From Yinghuangia seranimata (GTDB lineage Bacteria > Actinomycetota > Actinomycetes > Streptomycetales > Streptomycetaceae): 64,000 bases of DNA. The stretch lies in assembly GCF_029953285.1 (NCBI RefSeq), contig NZ_JASAOI010000081.1, positions 1 to 64,000 on the forward strand, in the 5' to 3' direction. Under the pieces are notes generated by a model, which worked only from the letters and a program-made list of their open reading frames with translations, did not search any database and was not told the origin of the DNA. The position numbers and the translations under genes were made by a program. Shown here one piece after another: positions 52,439 through 64,000 of the stretch (its first letter is position 1; each line of letters begins with the position of its first letter).

Positions 52439-53574
52439 TCGGTGATGCTCCCTCGCAGATAGGCCGCGGCGTGGCCGGCGCGCTCGCGCACGTCGGCCAG
52501 GTCGTCGCCGGACACCGTGACGTGTCCGACCTTGCGCCCGGGCTTGACGTCCTTGCCGTACATGTGGACCTTCACGCCCGGGTCGCGCGCCATGACGTGC
52601 AGGTACGCGTGGTACATGTCCGGGTAGTCGCCGCCGAGCACGTTGACCATCACGGTCCACTTGGCGCGCGCCCGGGGGTCGCCGAGCGGCAGGTCCAGGA
52701 CGGCCCGCAGGTGGTTCTCGAACTGCGAGGTCACCGCGCCGTCGATGGTCCAGTGGCCCGAGTTGTGCGGGCGCATCGCCAGCTCGTTCACCAGGATGCG
52801 GCCGTCGCGCGTCTCGAACAGCTCGACCGCCAGGTGGCCGGTCACGCCGAGCTCGCCGGCGATCGCCAGGGCGATGCGCTGCGCCTCGAGGGCGCGCTCC
52901 TCCGGCAGGTCCGGCGCGGGCGCGATGACCTCGTGGCAGATGCCGTCGACCTGGATGCTCTCCACGACCGGGTAGGCGACCGCCTGGCCGTGCGGCGAGC
53001 GGACCACGCAGGCGGCCAGCTCGCGGACGAAATCCACCTTCTCCTCGGCGAGCACCGGGACACCCGCCCGGAACGGCGCGGCGGCCTCCTCGAGGCCCCG
53101 CACGACCCACACGCCCTTGCCGTCGTATCCGCCGCGCACCGTCTTGAGGACCACGGGCCAGCCGCCGACCTCGTCGGCGAACGCCGCGACGTCCTCGGGG
53201 CCGGCCACGATCCGGTTCCGCGGGCACGGCACGCCGATCTCCGCGAGGCGGGCCCGCATGACGCCCTTGTCCTGCGCGTGCACGAGCGCGTCCGGGCCGG
53301 GCCGCACGGCGACGCCGTCGGCCTCGAGGGCGCGCAGGTGGTCCGTGGGGACCTGCTCGTGGTCGAAGGTGACGACCGCGGCACCGCGCGCGAACTCGCG
53401 CAGGTCGGCCAGCGCCTTCTCGTCGCCGAGCACGACGTCGCCGACCACCTGGGCGGCGGACTCGTCCGGGGCGGCCGCGAGCACGCGGAAGCGGACACCG
53501 AGGGGAATAGCGGCCTGATGGGTCATGCGGGCGAGCTGGCCGCCTCCGACCATGCCGACGATCGGGTATGTCAC
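52435..53574 (-). CDS. purK: 5-(carboxyamino)imidazole ribonucleotide synthase
   Basis: ATP-grasp enzyme that carboxylates AIR with bicarbonate, providing the PurE substrate. About 379 residues. The N-terminal [18 protein letters not shown] is diagnostic. [20 protein letters not shown] is the ATP-grasp glycine-rich loop, and [20 protein letters not shown], followed by [20 protein letters not shown], carries metal and substrate residues. GTG 53574 is preferred; GTG 53580 and TTG 53583 lie two and three codons upstream and cannot be excluded. Confidence 0.95.
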
Positions 53575-53785
53575 GGGCACCAAGGGTATCCGGCCGCCGG
53601 GGCGCGGCCTGCCGCGGCCTCGCGGCCCTTACAACACAGCCAACCCGGCAAACCGGAACCGCGGCCGGGCGGTCCGTTCACCAAACGGTCAAGAGTGTGT
53701 AACCGGTCCGTGCCCTGCTTGGGGGAGGCGCCCGGAATTGCGGCTACCCTCGTCGGGTGAGTCATACGTACCGCCAGAGGCGCCG

Positions 53786-54283
53786 GTGAGCGGCACCCCT
53801 GAGCTTTCCCGGCGTCCTGGCCGCCTCTCGCGCATGCGCGGCGAGGTCGCCCAGTTCCTGATCGCGGGCGGACTCGCGTACGTCGTCGACGTGGCGGTCT
53901 TCAACCTCGGCCTGTACCTCGGCCTCGACGGCGTCACCGCGAAGATCGTCTCGTCGGTGCCGGCGACCATAGTCGCCTACATCGGCAACCGGTACTGGAC
54001 CTACCGGCACCGCGAGCGGACCGGCGTCGGCCGCGAGTACACGATGTTCTTCCTGCTCAGCGCCATCGCGGCGGGAATCCAGGCAGGTTGCGTGTTCGTC
54101 TCGAACCACGTCATGGGCTACACCAGCCCGCTTGCCGACAACATTTCCGGCAACATCGTAGGTATGGCCCTGGGGACCCTGTTCCGCTTCTGGGCGTTCC
54201 GCACCTTCGTGTTCAAGCACAAGGAACCGGAGCCGGCGCGCCCGACCGCGCCCGCGATGTCGAACGCGGGCGGTGAGTCGTGA
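53786..54283 (+). CDS. GtrA-family membrane protein
   Basis: A four-helix membrane protein of 165 residues, of the family implicated in flipping or handling polyprenyl-linked sugars. Helices begin at VAQFLIAGGLAYVVDVAVFN, IVSSVPATIVAYIGNRYWTY and YTMFFLLSAIAAGIQAGCVF, with a last one ending GTLFRFWAFRTFVFKH, the family signature. GTG 53786 has AGAGG six bases upstream. Divergent from purK. It overlaps the next GtrA gene by four bases, so the two may form a heteromer serving the surface-glycan pathway. Confidence 0.88.
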   Translation: MSGTPELSRRPGRLSRMRGEVAQFLIAGGLAYVVDVAVFNLGLYLGLDGVTAKIVSSVPATIVAYIGNRYWTYRHRERTGVGREYTMFFLLSAIAAGIQAGCVFVSNHVMGYTSPLADNISGNIVGMALGTLFRFWAFRTFVFKHKEPEPARPTAPAMSNAGGES

Positions 54284-54780
54284 CGGGGATCCGCGGGTTC
54301 TACGGGCGCTTCCGCCACCTGGTGCACGAACTGCTGAAGTTCGGCGCGGTGGGTGGATTCGGCGTGATCGTGAACGTCGTCGTGCTCAACCTCTGCCTCG
54401 ACCACCTGGACCTCGCGCCGGTGCGCTCGACGATCATCGCGACCGCCGCCGCCATCGCCGTGAACTACCTCGGCAACCGGTACTGGGCCTACCGCCACAA
54501 GGGCTCCGAGGACCGGCGGCGCGAGATGGTGCTGTTCCTGGTCTTCAGCGGCGTCGGCATGGGCATCACCGCCGGCATCGTCGCGGTCTCGAACTACGCG
54601 CTGGGCTTCACCAGCCTGCTGGCGAACAACATCGCCAACTACGCGATCGGCCTGCCGATCGGCACGCTGTTCCGGTTCTGGTCCTACCGCACGTGGGTGT
54701 TCACCGGGACGCGCGCGCGCGACATAGACCGCGAGGCCGAGCAGCTGGTCGAGGAGTCGACCACCCGGACACGGTCCTAG
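54280..54780 (+). CDS. GtrA-family membrane protein (second of a tandem pair)
   Basis: A 166-residue four-helix paralogue of the preceding protein: LLKFGAVGGFGVIVNVVVLN, TIIATAAAIAVNYLGNRYWA, MVLFLVFSGVGMGITAGIVA and GTLFRFWSYRTWVFTG. GTG 54280 overlaps the upstream stop (GTGA). The acidic C-terminal tail (DIDREAEQLVEES) is not seen in the first copy. Confidence 0.88.
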   Translation: MTGIRGFYGRFRHLVHELLKFGAVGGFGVIVNVVVLNLCLDHLDLAPVRSTIIATAAAIAVNYLGNRYWAYRHKGSEDRRREMVLFLVFSGVGMGITAGIVAVSNYALGFTSLLANNIANYAIGLPIGTLFRFWSYRTWVFTGTRARDIDREAEQLVEESTTRTRS

Positions 54781-54829: not shown

Positions 54830-56089
54830 TCAGTCGTCGGCCGGCTTGGCCGCCAGGAACACCGCGAACACCGGCGGGCGCAGCTGGAGCAGCTCCAGGC
54901 GCCCGCCGTCCGCTTCCGCGAGGTCGCGGGCCACGGCGAGGCCGAGACCGGTCGAGTTGCGGCCGCTGACCGCGCGTTCGAACACCCGAGCGCCCAGCAC
55001 GTCCGAGACCCCGGCGCCCTCGTCCTCGACCTCGACGACCACCGACGTGCCGGTCCGGCGCGTCCTGATGGTCACCGTGCCGCCGCCGTGCATGAGCGCG
55101 TTCTCCAGCAGCGTCGCGAGCACCTGCGCGAGCGCCCCGGGCGTCGCCACGGCCTCCAGGCCGCCCTCCCCCGCGACCCGGATCGCGCGGTGGGCGCCCA
55201 CCATCGCCGGGCGCCACTCGTCGACCTGCTGGCGCACCACGTCGTCCACCCGCACCGTCACCGCCGAAGCGGTGCGCGGGTCGCGCCCGGCCGCGCCGCG
55301 CCGGGTGCTGGTCAGCAGCCGCTCGACCACCTCGGTGAGCCGCTCGACCTGGGACAGCGCGATCGCGGCCTCCTCCTTCACGGTCGCCGGGTCCTCGGTG
55401 ACGATGATCTCCTCGAGGCGCATCGACAGCGCGGTCAGCGGCGTACGCAGCTGGTGCGAGGCGTCGGCGGCGAGCCGGCGCTCCGCGGTCAGCATGCGCG
55501 CGATGCGCTCGGCGCTGGTGTCCAGCACCTCGGCCACCCGGTCCAGCTCCGGCACGTCGTACCGGCGCTGACGCGGCCGCGGGTCGCCCGAGCCGAGCCG
55601 TTCGGCGGTCTCCGCGAGATCGGTCAGCGGACGCGCCAGGCGGCGCGCCTGCCACACCGCGAGCGCCGTCGCCGCGGCCACCGCGAGGAGCGCCACGCCG
55701 AGGATGAGCAGCAGCGACTCGCGCACGTCGCGCGTGACGCGGTCGCGCGACTCGCCGACGGTGACGGTCTCGCCCTGCGGGCCCGTCATCGTCACCTCGA
55801 ACGTCTTGCCGCCCGGCTTGTCGCCGAACTGCAGCGGCGCCCGCTGCGGGATCGCCACCGTCGCGTAGCGGCCCTCCGCCACCTGGCGCTGCAGCACCGC
55901 CACGTCCGGCTGGTCGCCCGACGACAGGCGCAGGTCGACGATCTCCAGGAGCCGTGAGGCCTCGGCCTTCAGGTTGTCCCGGGCGGTCGTCTCGATGGCG
56001 CGCGTCTCGACGAACGCCAGGGGAATGCCCAGCACGGCGACGACGACGAGCACCACTCCCAGCGTGGTGTTGATGAGCCTGCGGCGCAC
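54830..56089 (-). CDS. Sensor histidine kinase (two-component, HAMP-HisKA-HATPase)
   Basis: A 419-residue membrane kinase. Membrane segments at about 8-28 and 124-146 flank an extracytoplasmic sensor of about 95 residues. A HAMP region (about 147-200) precedes the H-box DASHQLRTPL with His212. The ATP site has ENALMHGGG (N-box), VEDEGAGVSD (G1) and STGLGLAVARDLAEADGG (G2). It is 34 bases downstream of its response-regulator gene on the same strand. The small sensor domain and nearby surface genes make an envelope signal plausible, but the ligand is unknown. Confidence 0.92.
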   Translation of the reverse strand: MRRRLINTTLGVVLVVVAVLGIPLAFVETRAIETTARDNLKAEASRLLEIVDLRLSSGDQPDVAVLQRQVAEGRYATVAIPQRAPLQFGDKPGGKTFEVTMTGPQGETVTVGESRDRVTRDVRESLLLILGVALLAVAAATALAVWQARRLARPLTDLAETAERLGSGDPRPRQRRYDVPELDRVAEVLDTSAERIARMLTAERRLAADASHQLRTPLTALSMRLEEIIVTEDPATVKEEAAIALSQVERLTEVVERLLTSTRRGAAGRDPRTASAVTVRVDDVVRQQVDEWRPAMVGAHRAIRVAGEGGLEAVATPGALAQVLATLLENALMHGGGTVTIRTRRTGTSVVVEVEDEGAGVSDVLGARVFERAVSGRNSTGLGLAVARDLAEADGGRLELLQLRPPVFAVFLAAKPADD

Positions 56090-56123: not shown

Positions 56124-56795
<672 letters not shown>

Positions 56796-56919
56796 GTGCC
56801 CGATCGTAGAACCCACGGGCCCGCTGGTCCCGTACCTGTCCCCACCTGTCCACTCCCGATCGCCTCCCGAGCACCCCCGACGGGCCCTGTGGAGGCCGGA
56901 AAACGCGCAGCCGGAAGCC

Positions 56920-56990: not shown

Positions 56991-57842
56991 TCAGTCGTCC
57001 TCGGTGTGGCGGCGCCACGACAGGAGCATCGTCACGACGGCCATCGCCAGGACCAGGACGCCCGCGCCGATGCCGAACAGGGCGGCGCCGGACATGCCGC
57101 CGCCGTCCGAGGACGATGCCGCGCCGCTCGCCTTCAGGGTCGCGCTGGAGCGCTCCGGTTCGGGGGCTCCGGTGCCCGTCGCGGTGCCGAATGCCGGGGG
57201 CGACTGCGGAGCCACCGGCACGGCGGCCTGGGGGCTCTGGCTGGTGCTGGTGCCCGCAGGGCCCTGCGCCGGGTTCGGCGGGGCGTCCTGCGCGGTGATC
57301 CGGATGACCGTCGAGACGCCGACCGGGGAGGTCGGGAAGCACGTGGTGATCTGGTCGCCGAAGGTCTGCGTGTTGGTGACCATCTTCCCCGGGGTCAGCG
57401 AGATGTCGCCGCGCGCCTCTATGGGGATGCTCAGTTCGCCCTCGTAGGGCGGGACCACGATCTGGTGGGGCGCGCCCGGGATGTCGACGCGCATCTGCGG
57501 TCCCTGGAGGCGCACCGTGCCGCTCGCGCCGCCCGACATCGTCAGGTCGATCGACGGTGTGAGGAGCGTGCCGGGGAACGGGATCGGGCTGGTGCCCGCG
57601 TTGGGGCCGAGGGTGACGCGGATCTTCACCTTGGCGCCGGGCCGCACCGCCTCGGCGGGGCCGTCCAGCGTGACCAGCTGTTCGCCCTCGATCGCCGGTT
57701 GTTCAAGCGGCAGTTCGCAGTGCACCTGCATGGGGACCGTCGTCCCGGCGTACGCCGTCGGCGCGAGGCCGATCACCGACGCGGCCACGCTCGCCGACGT
57801 CAGTCCCAGGACGAAACCGGCCCTCGCTATACGTCGAGCCAT
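56991..57842 (-). CDS. Secreted, C-terminally membrane-anchored protein sharing a domain with its neighbours
   Basis: A 283-residue exported protein. A signal peptide (MARRIARAGFVLGLTSASVA, to about residue 32) is followed by one domain with VHCELPLEQPAIEGEQ, SIDLTMSGGASGTVRLQGP and GDISLTPGK. The order resembles LTLSMSGAATGTVSLAGP and GDIQFTPTG in the 57999-59846 protein. A Ser/Pro/Ala-rich stalk (about 190-245) and a C-terminal membrane helix with an RRH tail follow; there is no LAxTG motif. ATG 57842 has AAGGGA 12 bases upstream; ATG 57863 is possible. Perhaps a DUF6801-like domain; function unknown. Confidence 0.7.
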   Translation of the reverse strand: MARRIARAGFVLGLTSASVAASVIGLAPTAYAGTTVPMQVHCELPLEQPAIEGEQLVTLDGPAEAVRPGAKVKIRVTLGPNAGTSPIPFPGTLLTPSIDLTMSGGASGTVRLQGPQMRVDIPGAPHQIVVPPYEGELSIPIEARGDISLTPGKMVTNTQTFGDQITTCFPTSPVGVSTVIRITAQDAPPNPAQGPAGTSTSQSPQAAVPVAPQSPPAFGTATGTGAPEPERSSATLKASGAASSSDGGGMSGAALFGIGAGVLVLAMAVVTMLLSWRRHTEDD

Positions 57843-57915
57843 CGGAAATCGCGGTCCCTTCATCGGTTCTACGGTGGCTGCCGAGCGCCGGTCTTCGCAG
57901 GGCACAGTACGCGAA

Positions 57916-57998: not shown

Positions 57999-59846
57999 TC
58001 AGCCGCGGGCCTGCAGCCGCCGACGCCGGTACGGCACCAGCAGCAGCGTGCCGACGGCCGCGAGCACCGCGGTGCCGGCGACCAGCGCGAACGCGCTGAT
58101 GGTGTCCCCACCGGAACCGGTCTTGGCCAGGTCGCCGCCGGTCGCGGACGTGCCGCCGCTGGACTCCGCCGACGGGGGCGGGGTGCCCTTGTCACCGGAC
58201 GCGAGCAGCTGCGCCGACACATCGGTCTTCTGGGCGGTGCACTTGGTCATTGAGGTGATCGTCTGGCCGCCCAGCGGAACCTCGGTCTGGATGGTCAGCG
58301 TGCCCGGCGAGAACGAGAACATGCCGCCGCCCCACACCTTGAAGGTGCCGGTGAGCGCGCCCGCGGTGGTGAGGTCGTCACCGGGGCTCACGGTGATCTC
58401 GTGCTTGGGCTCGGTCACCTCGAACGACGAGGTGTCGGTGCCCTGCACGACGTCGACGGTGAGCTTCGGCGTGACGAAGAGCTTGCTGTTCGCCGGCACC
58501 ATGCTCGGGGCCTTGCCGATCACGTTGCCCTGGATCTCCGCCTTGACGTCGACCGTGTCGCCGCCCGCGGCGTTCGCCGGAACGGTGAGCTTGATCGGCA
58601 CGGTCGTCTGCATCGCCGGGATGTCGATGTCGATGCCGGTGACCGTGGTCTTGCACTCGTACTGGACGTCGACCTGCCTCGGATCCATCGGCTTCTCGCC
58701 GGAGGGCGGCGTGGTCACCGTGAAGGCGGCGCCGTCGGCGCGGTCCGTGTTGTTCTTCTCCGCGACGCCGATGCCGACCGTGCTCGGGTCCTTGACCACG
58801 AACTCGACGTCCTTGATCTCACCCTTGGCGTCCGCCTTGACCTGGACGACCGGGTCGGTGGACTTGTCGCCCTTGCCGTCAGCGCCGGGGACGGCGCCGA
58901 ACACGATCAGGTCCGCGTTCGGGGTGAACGACTTGCCGCTGACCTTGACCTTGGTGCCGACCGGGCCGGAGGACGGGTCGATCCCCACCTTGGGCTCGGC
59001 CGCGGGCGCCTTCTTCACCTTGAGCGGGGCGGTCTTGTTCTTGTCGCCCGAGCTCACCTTGACCGTGTAGTCGCCGTCCGCCGTGCCGGCGGCGACGGTC
59101 GCCTTGCCGGACAGCGTTCCGTTCGCGACCGACGGGGACTTGGCGGAGAAGCCGTCCGCCTTGCAATTGGCGCCGGCCGCGTCGCACAGCTCGACGGTCG
59201 GCGTCCCGGCGGGCCAGCCGGCGCCGCTGAGGGTGATCTCGTTGCCGGGCTCCACGGTGCCGGGCTGGACGTCGAGCGTCACGGCGCCGGCCGGCGGGGA
59301 GTCGGCGGTGAACGTGGCGACGACCCCGTTGGCACCCGCGTACGTGCACGGCGCGGTCTGCTTGCCCAGCCCTGGGAGGTCCGTCACGTTGGCGGTGCCG
59401 GTCGGCGTGAACTGGATGTCGCCCACGGCCGCCGCCGGGATCGTGAAGGTCGCGGTGTACGGCGCGGGGTCGATCGGCACGTCGGCGGCGATGTCCAGGG
59501 TCACCTCGGGGCCGGCCAGGCTGACGGTGCCGGTCGCGGCGCCGCTCATGCTGAGCGTCAGGGTGCTCTGCGCCTTGGCGCCCTTGAAGGCCATCGGGCT
59601 GGTGATGGGCGGCGGGCCGAGGTCCACGGTGGCCGTGACGGTGACGCCCCCGGGCCCGGTCGTCTTGTCGAAGTCGACCTTGATCGTCTGGGGGCCCGTC
59701 TTCTTGCCGATGACGGGTACATCGCACGTAGCGTCTCGCGTCACGCTGCCCGCGTACGCGGAGGACGCGATGGCGGTCAGGCCCGCCGTCCCGGCGATTG
59801 TCACCGCCCCCAGGAAGGCGGCGGTTCTCCTACTGACTCTCATCAT
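57999..59846 (-). CDS. LAxTG-anchored multidomain surface protein with IPT-like domain
   Basis: A 615-residue exported protein. Signal peptide to about 32; first beta domain at about 33-192 with CDVPVIGKKTGPQTIKVDF. An Ig-like domain follows at about 193-290 (VEPGNEITLSGAGWPAGTP, neocarzinostatin-like), then an IPT/TIG-like domain at about 290-397 (GIDPSSGPVGTKVKVSGKSF). A second copy of the first domain type lies at about 405-553 (VQYECKTTVTGIDIDIPAM). The Ser/Gly-rich stalk ends in LAKTG (573-577), a hydrophobic helix and RRRR. This is a sortase-class-E-type LAxTG signal, so the protein is probably linked to peptidoglycan. Ligand unknown. Confidence 0.8.
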   Translation of the reverse strand: MMRVSRRTAAFLGAVTIAGTAGLTAIASSAYAGSVTRDATCDVPVIGKKTGPQTIKVDFDKTTGPGGVTVTATVDLGPPPITSPMAFKGAKAQSTLTLSMSGAATGTVSLAGPEVTLDIAADVPIDPAPYTATFTIPAAAVGDIQFTPTGTANVTDLPGLGKQTAPCTYAGANGVVATFTADSPPAGAVTLDVQPGTVEPGNEITLSGAGWPAGTPTVELCDAAGANCKADGFSAKSPSVANGTLSGKATVAAGTADGDYTVKVSSGDKNKTAPLKVKKAPAAEPKVGIDPSSGPVGTKVKVSGKSFTPNADLIVFGAVPGADGKGDKSTDPVVQVKADAKGEIKDVEFVVKDPSTVGIGVAEKNNTDRADGAAFTVTTPPSGEKPMDPRQVDVQYECKTTVTGIDIDIPAMQTTVPIKLTVPANAAGGDTVDVKAEIQGNVIGKAPSMVPANSKLFVTPKLTVDVVQGTDTSSFEVTEPKHEITVSPGDDLTTAGALTGTFKVWGGGMFSFSPGTLTIQTEVPLGGQTITSMTKCTAQKTDVSAQLLASGDKGTPPPSAESSGGTSATGGDLAKTGSGGDTISAFALVAGTAVLAAVGTLLLVPYRRRRLQARG

Positions 59847-59907
59847 GAGCTGGATGTCCCAATCTCGAAGTGGAGCGACCCCGTTATCGCGAAGCGGTGA
59901 AGCGGTG

Positions 59908-60801
59908 TCAGGTCTGGGCGCGGCGCCCGCGGCGGTGCGGGAGGGCGAGGATCACGGCCAGGCCCGCCATCAGTAGGGAGGCCGTGAAGAACGCGAAGGC
60001 GGTCAGGCCCGGTCCGCCGCCGCCGGTGTGGGCGAGGTCGCCGCCGGAAGCGGAACTCGTGCCCGACGAGCCGGTGGTGGCCGTCGCGGTGTCGGTCGCG
60101 GTGGGCGTCGGCGTGCCCGTCCCCGCGTCCTTCACGCCGCCCTGCACGTCCTGCTGCAGAGTGCGCTGTTCACTCGGCGAGGCGCTGGTAGGCGCGTCCT
60201 TGGGCGCCACCACGACGGTCGCGCCGTGGTCGCCCGGGTCGGAGGAGCACTGCATGCGACCGAACTCGCCAGCCCCGGAGGGTTCGGACAGGAAAAGGGA
60301 GAAGGTGGTCGGGGCGATGCGGTAGGTGCCCGCGTCGCCCAGCTTCACCTTGGCGGTGAACTCGTCGGCCACCGCGTACTGTCCGTCGGCCTGCGGGGTC
60401 GTCTGTGCGGCGGGCGGCTGGAGGTCCGCGGTCTTGTCGGCCGCGCCCTGCCGCGCCATCCGGATCCGCAGGCCCTGCGTCACCGCGACCTGGGCCGGCG
60501 GCGACTGGAGCCGCGCGGTGACCGCCAGGTCGGAGCTGACCGCCACGCGCACGGTGAACTCCACGCCGGCGACGGCGTTCGCGGGCGCGTTGACGACCAC
60601 CCGGGTGGTGAACGTCGACGGCACCTGGGTGCCCGGCTGGGACGCGTCCGCGAACGAGCACGAGTACGTCTGGTCGAACGGCCCGTCCGCATCGGCGGCT
60701 TGCGCGGTGAATGCCGATGCCAGCAGTCCCCCCGACGCGAGAAGCACGCTCGCGGCGGCGGCTGCCACCGTGGGCGCGATCCCGGTCCTCCTTGCGATCA
60801 T
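59908..60801 (-). CDS. LAxTG-anchored secreted surface protein
   Basis: A 297-residue exported protein. A signal peptide ends near AFTAQAADA (residue 36). A single beta domain (about 40-205), with YSCSFADASQPGTQVPSTF, EFTVRVAVSSDLAVTARLQS and YRIAPTTFSLFL, resembles the repeated domain of the two downstream proteins. A Thr/Ser-rich stalk leads to LAHTG (256-260), a hydrophobic helix and RRGRR, a sortase-type sorting signal. It begins 31 bases after the WxL-like gene, in the same operon. Function unknown. Confidence 0.78.
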   Translation of the reverse strand: MIARRTGIAPTVAAAAASVLLASGGLLASAFTAQAADADGPFDQTYSCSFADASQPGTQVPSTFTTRVVVNAPANAVAGVEFTVRVAVSSDLAVTARLQSPPAQVAVTQGLRIRMARQGAADKTADLQPPAAQTTPQADGQYAVADEFTAKVKLGDAGTYRIAPTTFSLFLSEPSGAGEFGRMQCSSDPGDHGATVVVAPKDAPTSASPSEQRTLQQDVQGGVKDAGTGTPTPTATDTATATTGSSGTSSASGGDLAHTGGGGPGLTAFAFFTASLLMAGLAVILALPHRRGRRAQT

Positions 60802-60832
60802 CGGTTTCCCTACTCCTTTCCGCCGAGGTGGG

Positions 60833-61615
60833 TCAGACGAGCGTGAGGGTCAGCGTGGCCGTGTAGGAGCCGGGCACGACGCCCGACGCCGGCAGCCGCA
60901 GCGAGAAGTCGCCGCCGACCTCGAACTGCCCGCCCGTCACCTCTCGGTCCGACGGCGTCGAACACAGCAGTGCGGTACGGCTCTTGTCGGTGCGCGATCC
61001 GGGGACCGCCTTGCTCGGGTACGGCCCCGCGCCGTCGCGCGGGGCGCAGCGCGGCTGCCAGTCCAGTCCGTCGGCGCCGAGCTTGTCGCCACGAGTGGTC
61101 GCGAAGTCCGACATGGTCGCGGTGAGCGACCAGCCGAGCCGCGAGCCGCGGAAGTCCTGGACCAGCAGCGCCGGGAGCGTTCCGACGGCGGTGCGGGTCA
61201 TCGGCATGACGACGAGCTTGGGCTCGCCCGACGCCTCGGTCTCCCGGACGGTGAACGGGCCCGCGAGGATCCGGGCGCCGACCGGGGCGACCTGGATGCC
61301 GCCCGGGTCCGCCGGGCCGGCCTGGACGACCCGGGTGTCGTAGACCAGCGACGTGCCGTCCTGGCCCGGCGCGGCGGGCGTGCTCGGGGGCGGTGCCTGC
61401 GGCGGCGCGGGGGGCGGCGTCTCCGGCATGACCCCCGGGGTGTCCCGCGGTTCCGCGACCGACTCGACCTGCGGGTCCGCCGCGTCGCCGCAGTCGGGCC
61501 CGGCACAGCCGCCGGCCGGGAAGAGCAGGAAGGTCGCCAGGACCAGCGTGCTGACGCAGACGGCGAACGCCGTCCCCAGCAAGGCCGCGGTCCCCCGCCC
61601 GGGCCGGTACGACAT
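60833..61615 (-). CDS. Secreted protein with WxL-like C-terminal domain
   Basis: A 260-residue protein with an N-terminal membrane or signal segment (about 11-33), a Pro-rich spacer (about 60-85) and a C-terminal beta domain. LLVQDFRGSRLGWSLTATMS carries the first WxL-type motif (Trp162-Ser-Leu164), followed by SDF. The end, GVVPGSYTATLTLTLV, sits where the second WxL motif falls in Firmicutes proteins, but Trp is replaced by Leu. WxL domains bind the peptidoglycan surface non-covalently. The start overlaps the upstream gene by one base; the upstream-next gene is DUF916-like, the usual WxL partner. Confidence 0.7.
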   Translation of the reverse strand: MSYRPGRGTAALLGTAFAVCVSTLVLATFLLFPAGGCAGPDCGDAADPQVESVAEPRDTPGVMPETPPPAPPQAPPPSTPAAPGQDGTSLVYDTRVVQAGPADPGGIQVAPVGARILAGPFTVRETEASGEPKLVVMPMTRTAVGTLPALLVQDFRGSRLGWSLTATMSDFATTRGDKLGADGLDWQPRCAPRDGAGPYPSKAVPGSRTDKSRTALLCSTPSDREVTGGQFEVGGDFSLRLPASGVVPGSYTATLTLTLV

Positions 61616-62970
61616 CAGGCATCGTCTCCCTCGCCGGGGTTCCAGGCGAGGCCGCGCGCGACGTCCTCGGGTCTGACGACCCGGCGTCCGGGCGCGGGTT
61701 CGGGCGAGGGCGGTGCGACGGGCGGCGGCGCGGGCACGGCGGTGGACGAAGTGGTGTCCACCGCAGGGGAGTCCGAAGCGGGCGACGGCTTGGCCGACGA
61801 CTCGGAGAACAACGGACCGCTGATGACCACGGTCTCGGAGACCGAACGGCGCGGTGTCCCGCCGCCGACCGCGAGCACCGGCTCACGCGCGGGCTCCGGA
61901 GCCGTCGCGGGCGACGGGGTCTCCGCCGGCGCGGATCCGCCGCGTTTGCCGGCCGCCTCCTTGATGACCGAGCCTCCCGGCAGCCCGACCGCGCGGTCCT
62001 TCTCGATGGCGCGTTCCTCGCGGTTGCTGCGGACGGCTCCCACCAGCGAGACGCCGAGCCGCCACACCGTCATCGGGGCGACGACGATCAGGAGGCCGCC
62101 GAACAGGTAGACGCCCCAAGGCCGTCCGACGTTGAGCACCTGCTCGTCGACGACCTGGTTCTCGTACATCACGCGGTAGCGGAACTGGCCGTGCTGGCGC
62201 GGCTCCAGTTCGATCGGGATCTTGACGGTGACGCGCTGGCCCGGGTTGATCGTGCCCTGCCAGTCCCACGTCGACCAGGTCGGCGCGAACACGCCCTCGA
62301 ACGTGGCGATCTTGAACCGCGGGTTGACGATCGGGCTCTGGCCCATGTTGCCGACCTCGATCTCGAACCGCCGGCTGACCGGCGACCCGAACCAGGTGAA
62401 CAACGTGTCCTTGCCGGTCATCTTGCTGGTGAGGAACACCAGGCGGCCGGGCGTTTTCACGTCCGCCGGCAGCGCGGCGAACGGCGCGCCCTCGATCTCC
62501 AGCGGGGCGGTGTGGTCCTGCTGGTCGGTGCCGGTGACCGTGACCGCCCGCACCACGCACGGGCACGGGACGGGCGGCAGCGCGACCTTGAGCGACACGT
62601 TGATCATGCCGGCGTCGCTGACGGGCGTCTGGACGGCTGACGGCAGCGCGCAAGTACGGGTGCCGCCGAGGGCGTTCTGACCGCACACGGAGATGTTCAC
62701 GAGCGCGCCCTTGGGCCAGCCGGCGCCGGTGACGCGGACGACCGCGTCGGCCTTGCTCTTGCCGGGGTCGAGGGACAGCGATGCGGGCCCGGTCCCGTTG
62801 TCGGACGCGGACGGCTTCGGGCTGGGAGCGGAGGTCGCCGCCGTGGCGGGCGCCGCGAGCGCGGCGAGCACGAGTCCGAGGAACGCGAGCACACACAAGA
62901 ACGCCCCCGGGCGCGGTCGGCTGACCGCCGACCGCGCCGGAGGTGTGGAGCGGGGAGGTGCGAAGGACAT
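61615..62970 (-). CDS. Exported Ig-like protein with one membrane helix and long Pro-rich tail
   Basis: A 451-residue protein. Signal segment at about 20-45; an Ig-like domain with VVRVTGAGWPKGALVNISVC and CPCVVRAVTVTG (about 65-160) resembles neocarzinostatin-type folds. A second beta region includes FEIEVGNMGQSPIVNPRFKI and PGQRVTVKIPIELEPRQHGQ (about 190-275). A membrane helix near 290-310 (YLFGGLLIVVAPMTVWRLGV) is followed by an intracellular Arg/Glu segment and a Pro-rich tail. One-base overlaps link it to both neighbours, indicating one complex or pathway. No enzymatic motif seen. Confidence 0.68.
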   Translation of the reverse strand: MSFAPPRSTPPARSAVSRPRPGAFLCVLAFLGLVLAALAAPATAATSAPSPKPSASDNGTGPASLSLDPGKSKADAVVRVTGAGWPKGALVNISVCGQNALGGTRTCALPSAVQTPVSDAGMINVSLKVALPPVPCPCVVRAVTVTGTDQQDHTAPLEIEGAPFAALPADVKTPGRLVFLTSKMTGKDTLFTWFGSPVSRRFEIEVGNMGQSPIVNPRFKIATFEGVFAPTWSTWDWQGTINPGQRVTVKIPIELEPRQHGQFRYRVMYENQVVDEQVLNVGRPWGVYLFGGLLIVVAPMTVWRLGVSLVGAVRSNREERAIEKDRAVGLPGGSVIKEAAGKRGGSAPAETPSPATAPEPAREPVLAVGGGTPRRSVSETVVISGPLFSESSAKPSPASDSPAVDTTSSTAVPAPPPVAPPSPEPAPGRRVVRPEDVARGLAWNPGEGDDA

Positions 62971-64000
62971 CAGCCGCCGACCCCCGCCGGGTCGGCGGTG
63001 GGCTCCTGCTGGGGCGTGCCGCCTCCGGCACCGCCGCGCTTCTTGTCCTTCTTCGCGGGGGAGTTCGGCTCGTCGGCCGCGTTGTCGCCCGGCGTGTCGG
63101 GCTTCTTGGGCTTGGCCCCGTCGCCACCGGAACTTCCGCCCTTGGCACGGCGGTTGCGCAGGTACGACCAGGCGAACCCGGCGACGACGAGCAGGAACGC
63201 CAGGGTCACGAGCGCGGGCCACGGCACCGCCGTGTAGCTGGTGCTCTCGCTGTCCTCGAGCTTCTGGCCGTTCGACTGGGAGATGACCTTCACCGACACC
63301 GAGACGTGGTCCATGAGCGGCGCGTCGTTCCACACCTGCGAGAGCTCGACGCTCTGGCCGGGCAGCAGCGGTTCGGGCGCGGTGCTGGTCTTGTTCAGCA
63401 GCTTGCCGAACAGGCCGTCGGCCTTGAGCACGTAGCTCGGCGTGATCATGACGTTGCCGCGGTTGACCACCGTGTAGTGGATGACGGCCTTGTCCGAGCC
63501 GAAGAAGTCGCCGAAGCCGGTGCTGCGTTCGACGCGCACGTCGCGGACCTCGACACCGGGCAGCGCGTCGCCCGCGACCCGCAGGTAGATGCGGGCGCCG
63601 ATCTGCATCTGCTCGTCGACGCGGAAGTCGCCCTTCTGCTCGCGCTTGTACACCTCGGTGTTGAGCGCGGTCATGGCGCCGGCGTGGTCGCCGGGGCGGG
63701 CGTTCGGCGGGATCGTGATCGTGAACGGGATGGTCGCCTGCTGGTTCGGCTTCAGCGTGACCTCGGTCTGGCCGCCGGCCACCTTGAGCCACAGGCCGAC
63801 GTCGGTCTGCTGGTCGGTGATCTGCCTGATGCCGAAGGCGCCGTCGCGCGGCGTGTTGTACGCGTCCGAGCCGAACAGCTTGAACGTCATGTCGTGGTCG
63901 GAGGTGTTCGAGAGGACGGCCACGTCCGAGACCGTGGTCCCGGGGGCTCCGTCCAGGAAGAAGTAGCGCCGGTCGTTCTGCTTGTTGGCGTCGGTGACCA
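62970..64000 (-). CDS. DUF916/WxL-interacting-type membrane protein (5' end beyond window)
   Basis: Partial: the coding frame runs off the right edge, so the signal peptide is not seen. The visible 340 or so residues open with RRYFFLDGAPGTTVSDVAVL, then the DUF916-type region with GVWLKVAGG-like VGLWLKVAGGQTEVTLKPNQ and FTITIPPNARPGDHAGAM. A second beta domain includes VIHYTVVNRGNVMITPSYVL and GLFGKLLNKTSTAPEPLLPG. A C-terminal helix (ALVTLAFLLVVAGFAWSYL) and a Lys/Gly-rich tail follow. In Firmicutes such proteins bridge WxL proteins and peptidoglycan. First visible gene of the cluster. Confidence 0.82.
   Translation of the reverse strand, partial: VTDANKQNDRRYFFLDGAPGTTVSDVAVLSNTSDHDMTFKLFGSDAYNTPRDGAFGIRQITDQQTDVGLWLKVAGGQTEVTLKPNQQATIPFTITIPPNARPGDHAGAMTALNTEVYKREQKGDFRVDEQMQIGARIYLRVAGDALPGVEVRDVRVERSTGFGDFFGSDKAVIHYTVVNRGNVMITPSYVLKADGLFGKLLNKTSTAPEPLLPGQSVELSQVWNDAPLMDHVSVSVKVISQSNGQKLEDSESTSYTAVPWPALVTLAFLLVVAGFAWSYLRNRRAKGGSSGGDGAKPKKPDTPGDNAADEPNSPAKKDKKRGGAGGGTPQQEPTADPAGVGG

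Follow-up and report, generated by a model that had tools for sequence, protein, structure and literature searches.

An actinobacterial branch of the WxL/WxLIP surface display system, proposed from an operon of Yinghuangia seranimata

The operon and its products

The DNA analysed here, referred to as the window, covers positions 1-64000 of contig C68 (64309 bases) from the Yinghuangia seranimata genome (G000, 9.8 Mb). Towards its right-hand end lies a run of minus-strand genes that encodes a DUF916 protein, here called WxLIP, together with a homologue of the WxL proteins. The WxL display system is known mostly from gut and food bacteria, for example Enterococcus and Lactobacillus. We propose, with a probability of about two in three, that the run represents an actinobacterial branch of WxL/WxLIP (csc) surface display, with receptor, shared anchors and regulation working as set out below. 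The genes and the features within them are as follows.

62970-64169, minus strand: WxLIP homologue, extending beyond the window edge at 64000; 399 residues, with a DUF916 domain, a second immunoglobulin (Ig)/HBD-like domain, a transmembrane (TM) helix and a basic tail
63576-63686, minus strand: long β-hairpin of the WxLIP, residues 162-198
61615-62970, minus strand: neocarzinostatin-like Ig membrane protein, 451 residues; a neocarzinostatin-like domain, a WxLIP-like second domain, a TM segment and a proline-rich tail
60833-61615, minus strand: small WxL protein, 260 residues; an N-terminal hydrophobic segment and a single WxL domain
61124-61132, minus strand: first WxL motif, W162-S163-L164, with D154 (W-8) and R156 (W-6)
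60839-60847, minus strand: position of the second WxL motif, L257-T258-L259, aligned to the Bacillota Trp by hhalign
59908-60801, minus strand: LAxTG protein 1, 297 residues, with LAHTG at 60022-60036
57999-59846, minus strand: LAxTG protein 2, 615 residues, with LAKTG at 58116-58130 and two LA domains
56991-57905, minus strand: LA protein 3, a paralogue with an LA domain and a C-terminal TM segment; the sorting motif is absent
56124-56816, minus strand: OmpR-type response regulator (PF00072, PF00486)
54830-56089, minus strand: histidine kinase with a DraK-type sensor domain (PF18092, E 2.9e-20; PF00512, PF02518)

The original prediction, made from the sequence of the window, described a single minus-strand run with one-base overlaps at its first two junctions, and these are found at 62970 and 61615. 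The run is longer than was described, and also takes in LA protein 3, the response regulator and the histidine kinase. The products named in that prediction are all present: a DUF916-type protein at the edge; an Ig-like membrane protein at 61615-62970, whose first domain proves to be neocarzinostatin-like; a WxL motif at Trp162-Leu164, reading WSL at residues 162-164 of the 60833-61615 product; and two LAxTG-anchored proteins, in which LAHTG or LAKTG precedes a hydrophobic segment and a basic tail. The 309 contig bases to the right of position 64000 complete the edge gene. FlgD_ig (E 0.69) and UpsA (E 0.07) also appeared as matches among the operon products and were not used.

The WxLIP homologue and its WxL partners

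The DUF916 match expected of the edge gene was found: PF06030 matches its product with an E value of 3.2e-9 and 37.3 bits, above the cut-off of 27.3, and it also matches all 37 aligned WxLIP members. The closest named match is a protein of Streptomyces sp. SID3343 at 49% identity (very near records were possibly excluded). An AlphaFold2 model built on 37 homologues (mean pLDDT 81) has two Ig-like domains followed by a helix at residues 317-344, and a hydropathy peak at 319 indicates a C-terminal TM segment. When this model was submitted to Foldseek, the top matches were two structures of the E. faecium WxLIP, one free (9i1y) and one in complex with a long WxL protein (9i25), at E 1.4e-14; after the WxLIPs came Vpr, RbmA, transglutaminase 2 and CEP192, with pilus chaperones from rank 12. 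VIA-align (VIA) superimposed residues 49-316 of the model on 9i25_C with Z 18.4 and a root-mean-square deviation of 5.0 over 239 residues; the likeness to the complex of E. faecium WxLIP1 with a long WxL protein lies in the fold of both WxLIP domains, and the difference in a sequence identity of 17%. The next VIA matches were pilus chaperones (Z 11-12, over both domains), interspersed with transglutaminases and GH2 domains whose Z was about 11. Alignment with three Bacillota WxLIPs by hhalign gave a probability of 98.5% over residues 26-283. PF11797 (DUF3324) did not match the second Ig domain of the window protein, and matched only one of the 37 members (E 0.0026). The DUF3324 mismatch notwithstanding, the two-domain WxLIP arrangement is present, because the Foldseek and VIA matches span both domains. 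The edge gene encodes a DUF916/WxLIP protein.

The WxL assignment of the 60833-61615 product comes from sequence profiles. Alignment by hhalign with five WxL proteins of Bacillota, from Enterococcus, Melissococcus and Pontibacillus plasmids, gave a probability of 97.7% (E 1.5e-12) over 140 columns covering both motif positions, and placed the LTL of the window protein opposite the second WxL motif of the Bacillota. The Trp of the first motif, the Asp eight residues before it and the Arg six residues before it each occur in 46/46 aligned actinobacterial domains; the same three residues are described for WxL domains of Bacilli in PMC9772566 (here and below, PMC numbers refer to excerpts of the papers). 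PF13731, the Pfam WxL model, matches 38 of the 46 homologous domains at E<=0.01, and of the two same-genus orthologues (G001 and G002) that of genome G001 passes its cut-off with 28.5 bits. By profile homology, then, the 60833-61615 protein is a WxL homologue.

The second motif behaves differently from the first. For this count all loci were read and near-copies (>=99% identity) removed, leaving 156 distinct domains, of which four were unreadable at the second-motif position; 19 of the WxL domains counted had been drawn from 396 genomes of the phylum by the Pfam model, not via the window domain. The first Trp is present in 153/153 readable distinct actinobacterial domains. The second is present in 0/152, its place being taken by Leu (115), His (12), Ile (10), Val (5), Glu (4), Phe (3), Thr (2) or Gln (1). 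Both Trp are present in all five Bacillota proteins. The second motif of the window protein had been called degenerate, and LTL is indeed found at residues 257-259, but this is not a quirk of one gene: with the Trp missing from every readable actinobacterial domain, local degeneration is ruled out. As the published dual motif fails, we have not filed the gene or its cluster as canonical WxL, but as a homologous single-Trp branch. A third Trp, W186, occurs in 39 of the 46 aligned domains, in 82 of 83 readable rows of the named-record set defined below, in 127 of 153 readable distinct domains, and in none of the five from Bacillota; it is possible that it stands in for the lost second Trp. Two further kinds of WxL domain were seen. 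L224, L225, L227, L228, L205 and L209 hold a divergent group with His at the second-Trp position, mostly beside divergent WxLIPs, and at L075:10812-11228 (G038), immediately behind a WxLIP, lies a WxL domain of reduced length, with a motif spacing of 77 as against 90-117.

The linkage between the two families, a gene-neighbourhood check suggested in the original prediction, is conserved. The named-record set consists of 85 loci (80 genome contigs and 5 plasmids) chosen by WxLIP similarity, with 83 WxLIP matches, 82 of them actinobacterial and one from Pontibacillus; the other two Bacillota loci were unmatched at that profile coverage. A WxL domain lies <=1.2 kb upstream in all 83. In a wider set of 130 distinct WxLIPs, from which 12 rows from WxL-picked loci, 14 partial rows and near-copies were left out, a WxL domain lies within 3.5 kb in 124. 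The PF06030 profile is matched in 28 of 61 relatives and in 28 of 296 genomes across the phylum, and all 28 of the 61 relatives with a WxL profile match also match the WxLIP profile. Among the matches listed from the open-access literature, no description of WxL systems in actinomycetes was found; PMC12537917 mentions DUF916 beside Actinomycetota-restricted Ang-2 genes. Streptomyces and Clavibacter genes are already labelled DUF916 in public records.

WxL domains are more numerous than WxLIPs in these genomes: 8 WxL places and 1 WxLIP in Y. seranimata itself, 12 and 2 in G002, and 9 and 2 in G005. Contig C68 holds one WxL gene beside the WxLIP, and ends 140 bases upstream of it. PMC10599100 defines a WxL gene cluster by the presence, within four genes, of two or more WxL and one WxLIP; two WxL genes stand beside the WxLIP in the relatives L062, L063, L064 and L110. 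Further LA-WxL genes of Y. seranimata are found at L103 (G000:C13:42000-56909) and L102 (G000:C22:366000-382000). C13 ends inside an LA-WxL gene, with the gene order seen upstream of the WxLIP in G005, and may lie upstream of the window; the ends of C13 and C68 share at most an 11-base word.

The WxLIP hairpin varies with the presence of WxL neighbours. Between H162 and V198 it comprises 29-46 residues in the 124 distinct WxL-linked WxLIPs. In five of the six WxLIPs without a WxL neighbour it comprises 22 residues, and the genomes concerned (G006, G008, G014, G026 and G034) were unmatched for WxL in the profile scan of genomes. In a tree that kept the hairpin columns, these five form a single clade (100/100) nested among WxL-linked WxLIPs. 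Three further WxLIP-like proteins without a WxL neighbour (split matches, not counted) also miss most of the hairpin, one of them in G010, which elsewhere has a full WxLIP beside a WxL gene. PMC10599100 predicts for WxLIP a long hairpin that inserts into the WxL domain and, with a parallel strand, completes its sandwich; a hairpin that holds the WxL domain in this way would be consistent with the joint loss seen here. Streptomycetaceae WxLIP-like proteins with a short hairpin and no WxL neighbour are found at L217, L218, L219, L072, L089, L220, L221 and L223; L072 and L089 retain neocarzinostatin-like and LA genes.

The LA domain, its anchors and the accessory genes

A domain of about 150 residues with two invariant cysteines, here called LA, is found in LAxTG protein 2, in LA protein 3 and in many WxL proteins. 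In LAxTG protein 2, two LA domains (59292-59756 and 58188-58685; E 2.5e-31 and 4.6e-24 with the LA profile) flank a middle stretch. The LA domain of LA protein 3 lies at 57279-57749 (E 1.7e-34), with a TM-like window at residue 277. LAxTG protein 1 has no match to the LA profile, its domain being too divergent, but for its G002 orthologue a match to the second of the two LA domains in protein 2 was obtained (8.7e-6). Among known families, the best Pfam match was DUF7104, in 3 of 31 members at 7.8e-4, and the best NCBIfam match was at 0.006, so that LA was not assigned to either. A relationship to WxL was rejected (hhalign probability 0.4%). Matches to Ika8/Ika4 in the PDB were supported by 16 residues only, and LA is not named after them.

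The LA domain was counted in 260 open frames holding LA or WxL in 131 loci; the loci overlap and some frames are counted twice. LA is combined with WxL in 104 frames, with LPxTG in 22 and with LAxTG in 24, and stands without either in 64; in the remaining frames WxL occurs alone (42), or the frame is open-ended or double-WxL (4). These architectures mean that one domain is provided with several anchors, namely WxL, a sortase signal or, in LA protein 3, a membrane segment. LAxTG proteins had seemed, in the original prediction, to replace the usual LPxTG partner. LAxTG partners are present, but the replacement is not strict, as relatives carry both signals on the same LA domain. Class E sortases prefer LAxTG (PMC5148588), a preference that the occurrence of LPxTG and LAxTG on the same LA domain fits. 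The Y. seranimata genome has nine sortase matches, three of them above the class E cut-off; with an LAxTG motif, a TM segment and a basic tail in each, LAxTG proteins 1 and 2 are predicted class E sortase substrates. They resemble the chaplins ChpA-C of S. coelicolor, which are such substrates, in having a signal sequence, LAxTG, a TM segment and a basic tail, and differ from them in their LA domains and their linkage to WxL genes.

The neocarzinostatin-like protein matches PF00960 at E 0.0032 and 17.9 bits, below the cut-off of 25, and 18 of 20 family members match at E<=0.1. Cys 96, 107, 136 and 138 of the domain are invariant in all 20. A relationship to neocarzinostatin is likely from these profile scores, yet we have not filed the protein as a PF00960 member. 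One of the 20 members matches Cbm74 at 1.7e-4. The second domain aligns with the second domain of the WxLIP (hhalign 89%, E 2.1e-6); beyond it come a TM-like window (residue 293) and an extended tail rich in proline. The protein thus looks like a second WxLIP with an altered first domain. A response regulator and kinase follow the third LA gene in L061, L062, L063, L064 and L110, three of the five being from the same genus. Convergent with the histidine kinase are two adjacent plus-strand genes for GtrA/DPMS-type membrane proteins, at 53525-54283 and 54280-54780, with a four-base overlap.

Proposed mechanism and competing interpretations

The known system with which the operon is best compared is the csc (cscA-D) WxL cluster of Bacilli, in which the WxLIP has the arrangement DUF916-DUF3324-TM. 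Shared features are a DUF916 protein with two Ig domains and a TM segment, adjacent WxL proteins, a sortase-anchored partner, and the Asp at W-8, Arg at W-6 and first Trp of the WxL domain. The actinobacterial version differs in that the second WxL Trp is absent from all readable domains, that just one of the 37 members has a second Ig domain recognised by the DUF3324 model, and that the window operon has an extra neocarzinostatin-like membrane protein. It also has an LA domain common to WxL and sortase partners, a two-component system at the operon end, and sortase partners of 297 and 615 residues, as against 90-140 for CscD (PMC1534035).

On the basis of the PF06030 match, the WxL profile homology and the conserved linkage, an actinomycete variant that combines DUF916 and WxL with LAxTG proteins, as originally predicted, is well founded. 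We hypothesise that the DUF916 protein is the receptor, anchored in the bacterial membrane through its C-terminal helix, and that the long β-hairpin of its first Ig domain completes the unfinished β-sandwich of the WxL domain, so that proteins with a WxL tail would be retained on the surface non-covalently. This contact has been predicted in print for Bacilli, and we infer it for the actinomycete pair. One receptor would serve several clients, namely the small WxL protein encoded in the operon and the LA-WxL proteins from other parts of the genome. The LA domain would also be fixed to the wall covalently by a class E sortase acting on LAxTG, or held through its own membrane anchor, and may contribute to a surface coat or to adhesion. 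The neocarzinostatin-like protein would be a second membrane-held partner, and the adjacent DraK-type two-component system probably controls expression of the operon. The products may form one multiprotein complex, as the original prediction suggested.

A wider interpretation, for which we see a little less than an even chance, is that WxL and WxLIP are a Gram-positive counterpart of pilus chaperone and pilin, combined with a hub-type display. A membrane-anchored PapD-like receptor would donate its hairpin strand to many interchangeable clients; display of the same LA domain could rely on strand donation (WxL), on a sortase (LPxTG/LAxTG) or on a membrane anchor, and the hairpin would have been lost once a lineage had lost its WxL clients. 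The chaperones of chaperone-usher systems (CfaA, CsuC, FimC) rank next after WxLIP among the VIA matches covering both domains, and share with it two Ig domains in tandem and an extended hairpin in domain 1; the pilins FimA and CfaB are among the best VIA matches of the WxL model (Z 6-7). The WxLIP differs in being membrane-anchored, and identity is 7-14%; we claim a likeness of fold, not homology.

A number of observations weigh against these proposals. The likeness to pilus chaperones is real but unspecific, because Vpr, RbmA, transglutaminase 2, CEP192 and GH2 score similarly. The joint loss of hairpin and WxL counts as one event, because the five short WxLIPs form one clade; L098, without a WxL neighbour, keeps a 35-residue hairpin; and the shortened hairpin may be either the inserting hairpin or the 'buttressing loop' of PMC10599100. 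Eleven more of the 61 relatives have a WxLIP-profile match and no WxL match. In two of these, G015 and G027, a divergent WxL domain is present, which the genome scan missed because only part of the candidates were scored in most genomes. Of the eight WxL places in the Y. seranimata genome, those on C66 and C110 score equally and perhaps represent a single duplicated region, and a place on C13 is truncated where the contig ends. A neocarzinostatin-like gene comes after the WxLIP in only 14 of 83 cases, and in G002 (L060) another LA-WxL gene comes after the third LA gene, the contig ending before any regulator. With the Pfam WxL model, matches within the E limit are confined to 16 of 61 relatives and 15 of 396 phylum genomes; it scores the 60833-61615 product at E 8.3e-4 and 19.8 bits, below the cut-off of 25, and does not match the G002 orthologue at E<=0.001. 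AlphaFold2 gives a good model of the window WxL protein only between about residues 120 and 260, and the solved WxL chain 9i25_A is not among the 50 best Foldseek or VIA matches of this model; these matches include pilins but also carbohydrate-binding modules, hydrolase domains and AP2 mu2. As the VIA matches are low (Z <=7.2) and mixed, the fold search leaves the WxL identity undecided. A sequence profile finds 9i25_A weakly (E 0.068), over the first-motif stretch only. The WxL identity put forward originally is thus upheld by profile homology, and neither confirmed nor excluded by structure search.

Other roles can be considered for the same genes. One is a hyphal-development or surface-hydrophobicity coat like that of the SrtE-anchored chaplins or CwpA/CwpB, with WxL merely a second anchor. 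It agrees with the roles of actinomycete LAxTG/SrtE substrates in aerial growth (PMC5148588) and sporangium formation, and with the description of CwpG as a sortase-substrate candidate with a neocarzinostatin-like domain (both PMC13251363), but the patchy distribution of the system (PF06030 in 28/61 relatives) is ill-suited to a core developmental part, and we regard this role as rather unlikely. Another is that the system is mainly a device for acquiring plant polysaccharides, with LA and other domains holding carbohydrates or enzymes at the surface. A polysaccharide role was proposed for the csc clusters of Lactobacillus and Bacilli by Siezen 2006 (PMC1534035), and two plasmids point the same way: in Streptomyces goshikiensis (L108) the DUF916 gene has a glycoside hydrolase nearby and a RICIN protein next to it, and in Clavibacter phaseoli (L109) it is near two GH43 and sugar transporter genes. 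The operon products scanned nevertheless gave no match to a carbohydrate enzyme, lectin or sugar transporter, and the LA domains (31 members) no match to a carbohydrate-binding family in Pfam or NCBIfam; we regard this role, too, as unlikely, slightly more so than the coat.

A third possibility is that the C-terminal helix of the WxLIP inserts into a host membrane, as proposed for Bacilli by Hassan 2023 (PMC10599100). Where the TM helix ends, the 14-residue stretch that begins at position 334 has a mean net charge of +4.8 and a minimum of +1, and is thus net positive in 37/37 members, as is normal for a stop-transfer anchor in bacteria. Of the 80 named loci, moreover, the majority belong to Streptomyces, which are mostly free-living soil bacteria. 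CscA was already taken as membrane-anchored by Siezen 2006 (PMC1534035), and host insertion in actinomycetes seems highly unlikely. Lastly, the idea that WSL arose by chance in an Ig-like domain unrelated to WxL could draw on the sub-threshold Pfam score, the absent second motif and the missing solved chain among the fold matches listed, but is scarcely credible given that the first-motif D, R and W are present in 46/46 domains, and given the 140-column profile match across both motif positions, the orthologue above the PF13731 cut-off and the conserved linkage to DUF916.

If the operon is an actinobacterial branch of WxL/WxLIP display, its presence in soil actinomycetes argues that the basic job of the system is surface display rather than host binding, and that the WxLIP helix resides in the membrane of the bacterium itself. 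From the consistent lack of the second Trp it can be seen which of the two motifs behind the name WxL is dispensable, and the short hairpin of the WxL-less WxLIPs opens the strand-donation model to a straightforward binding test.

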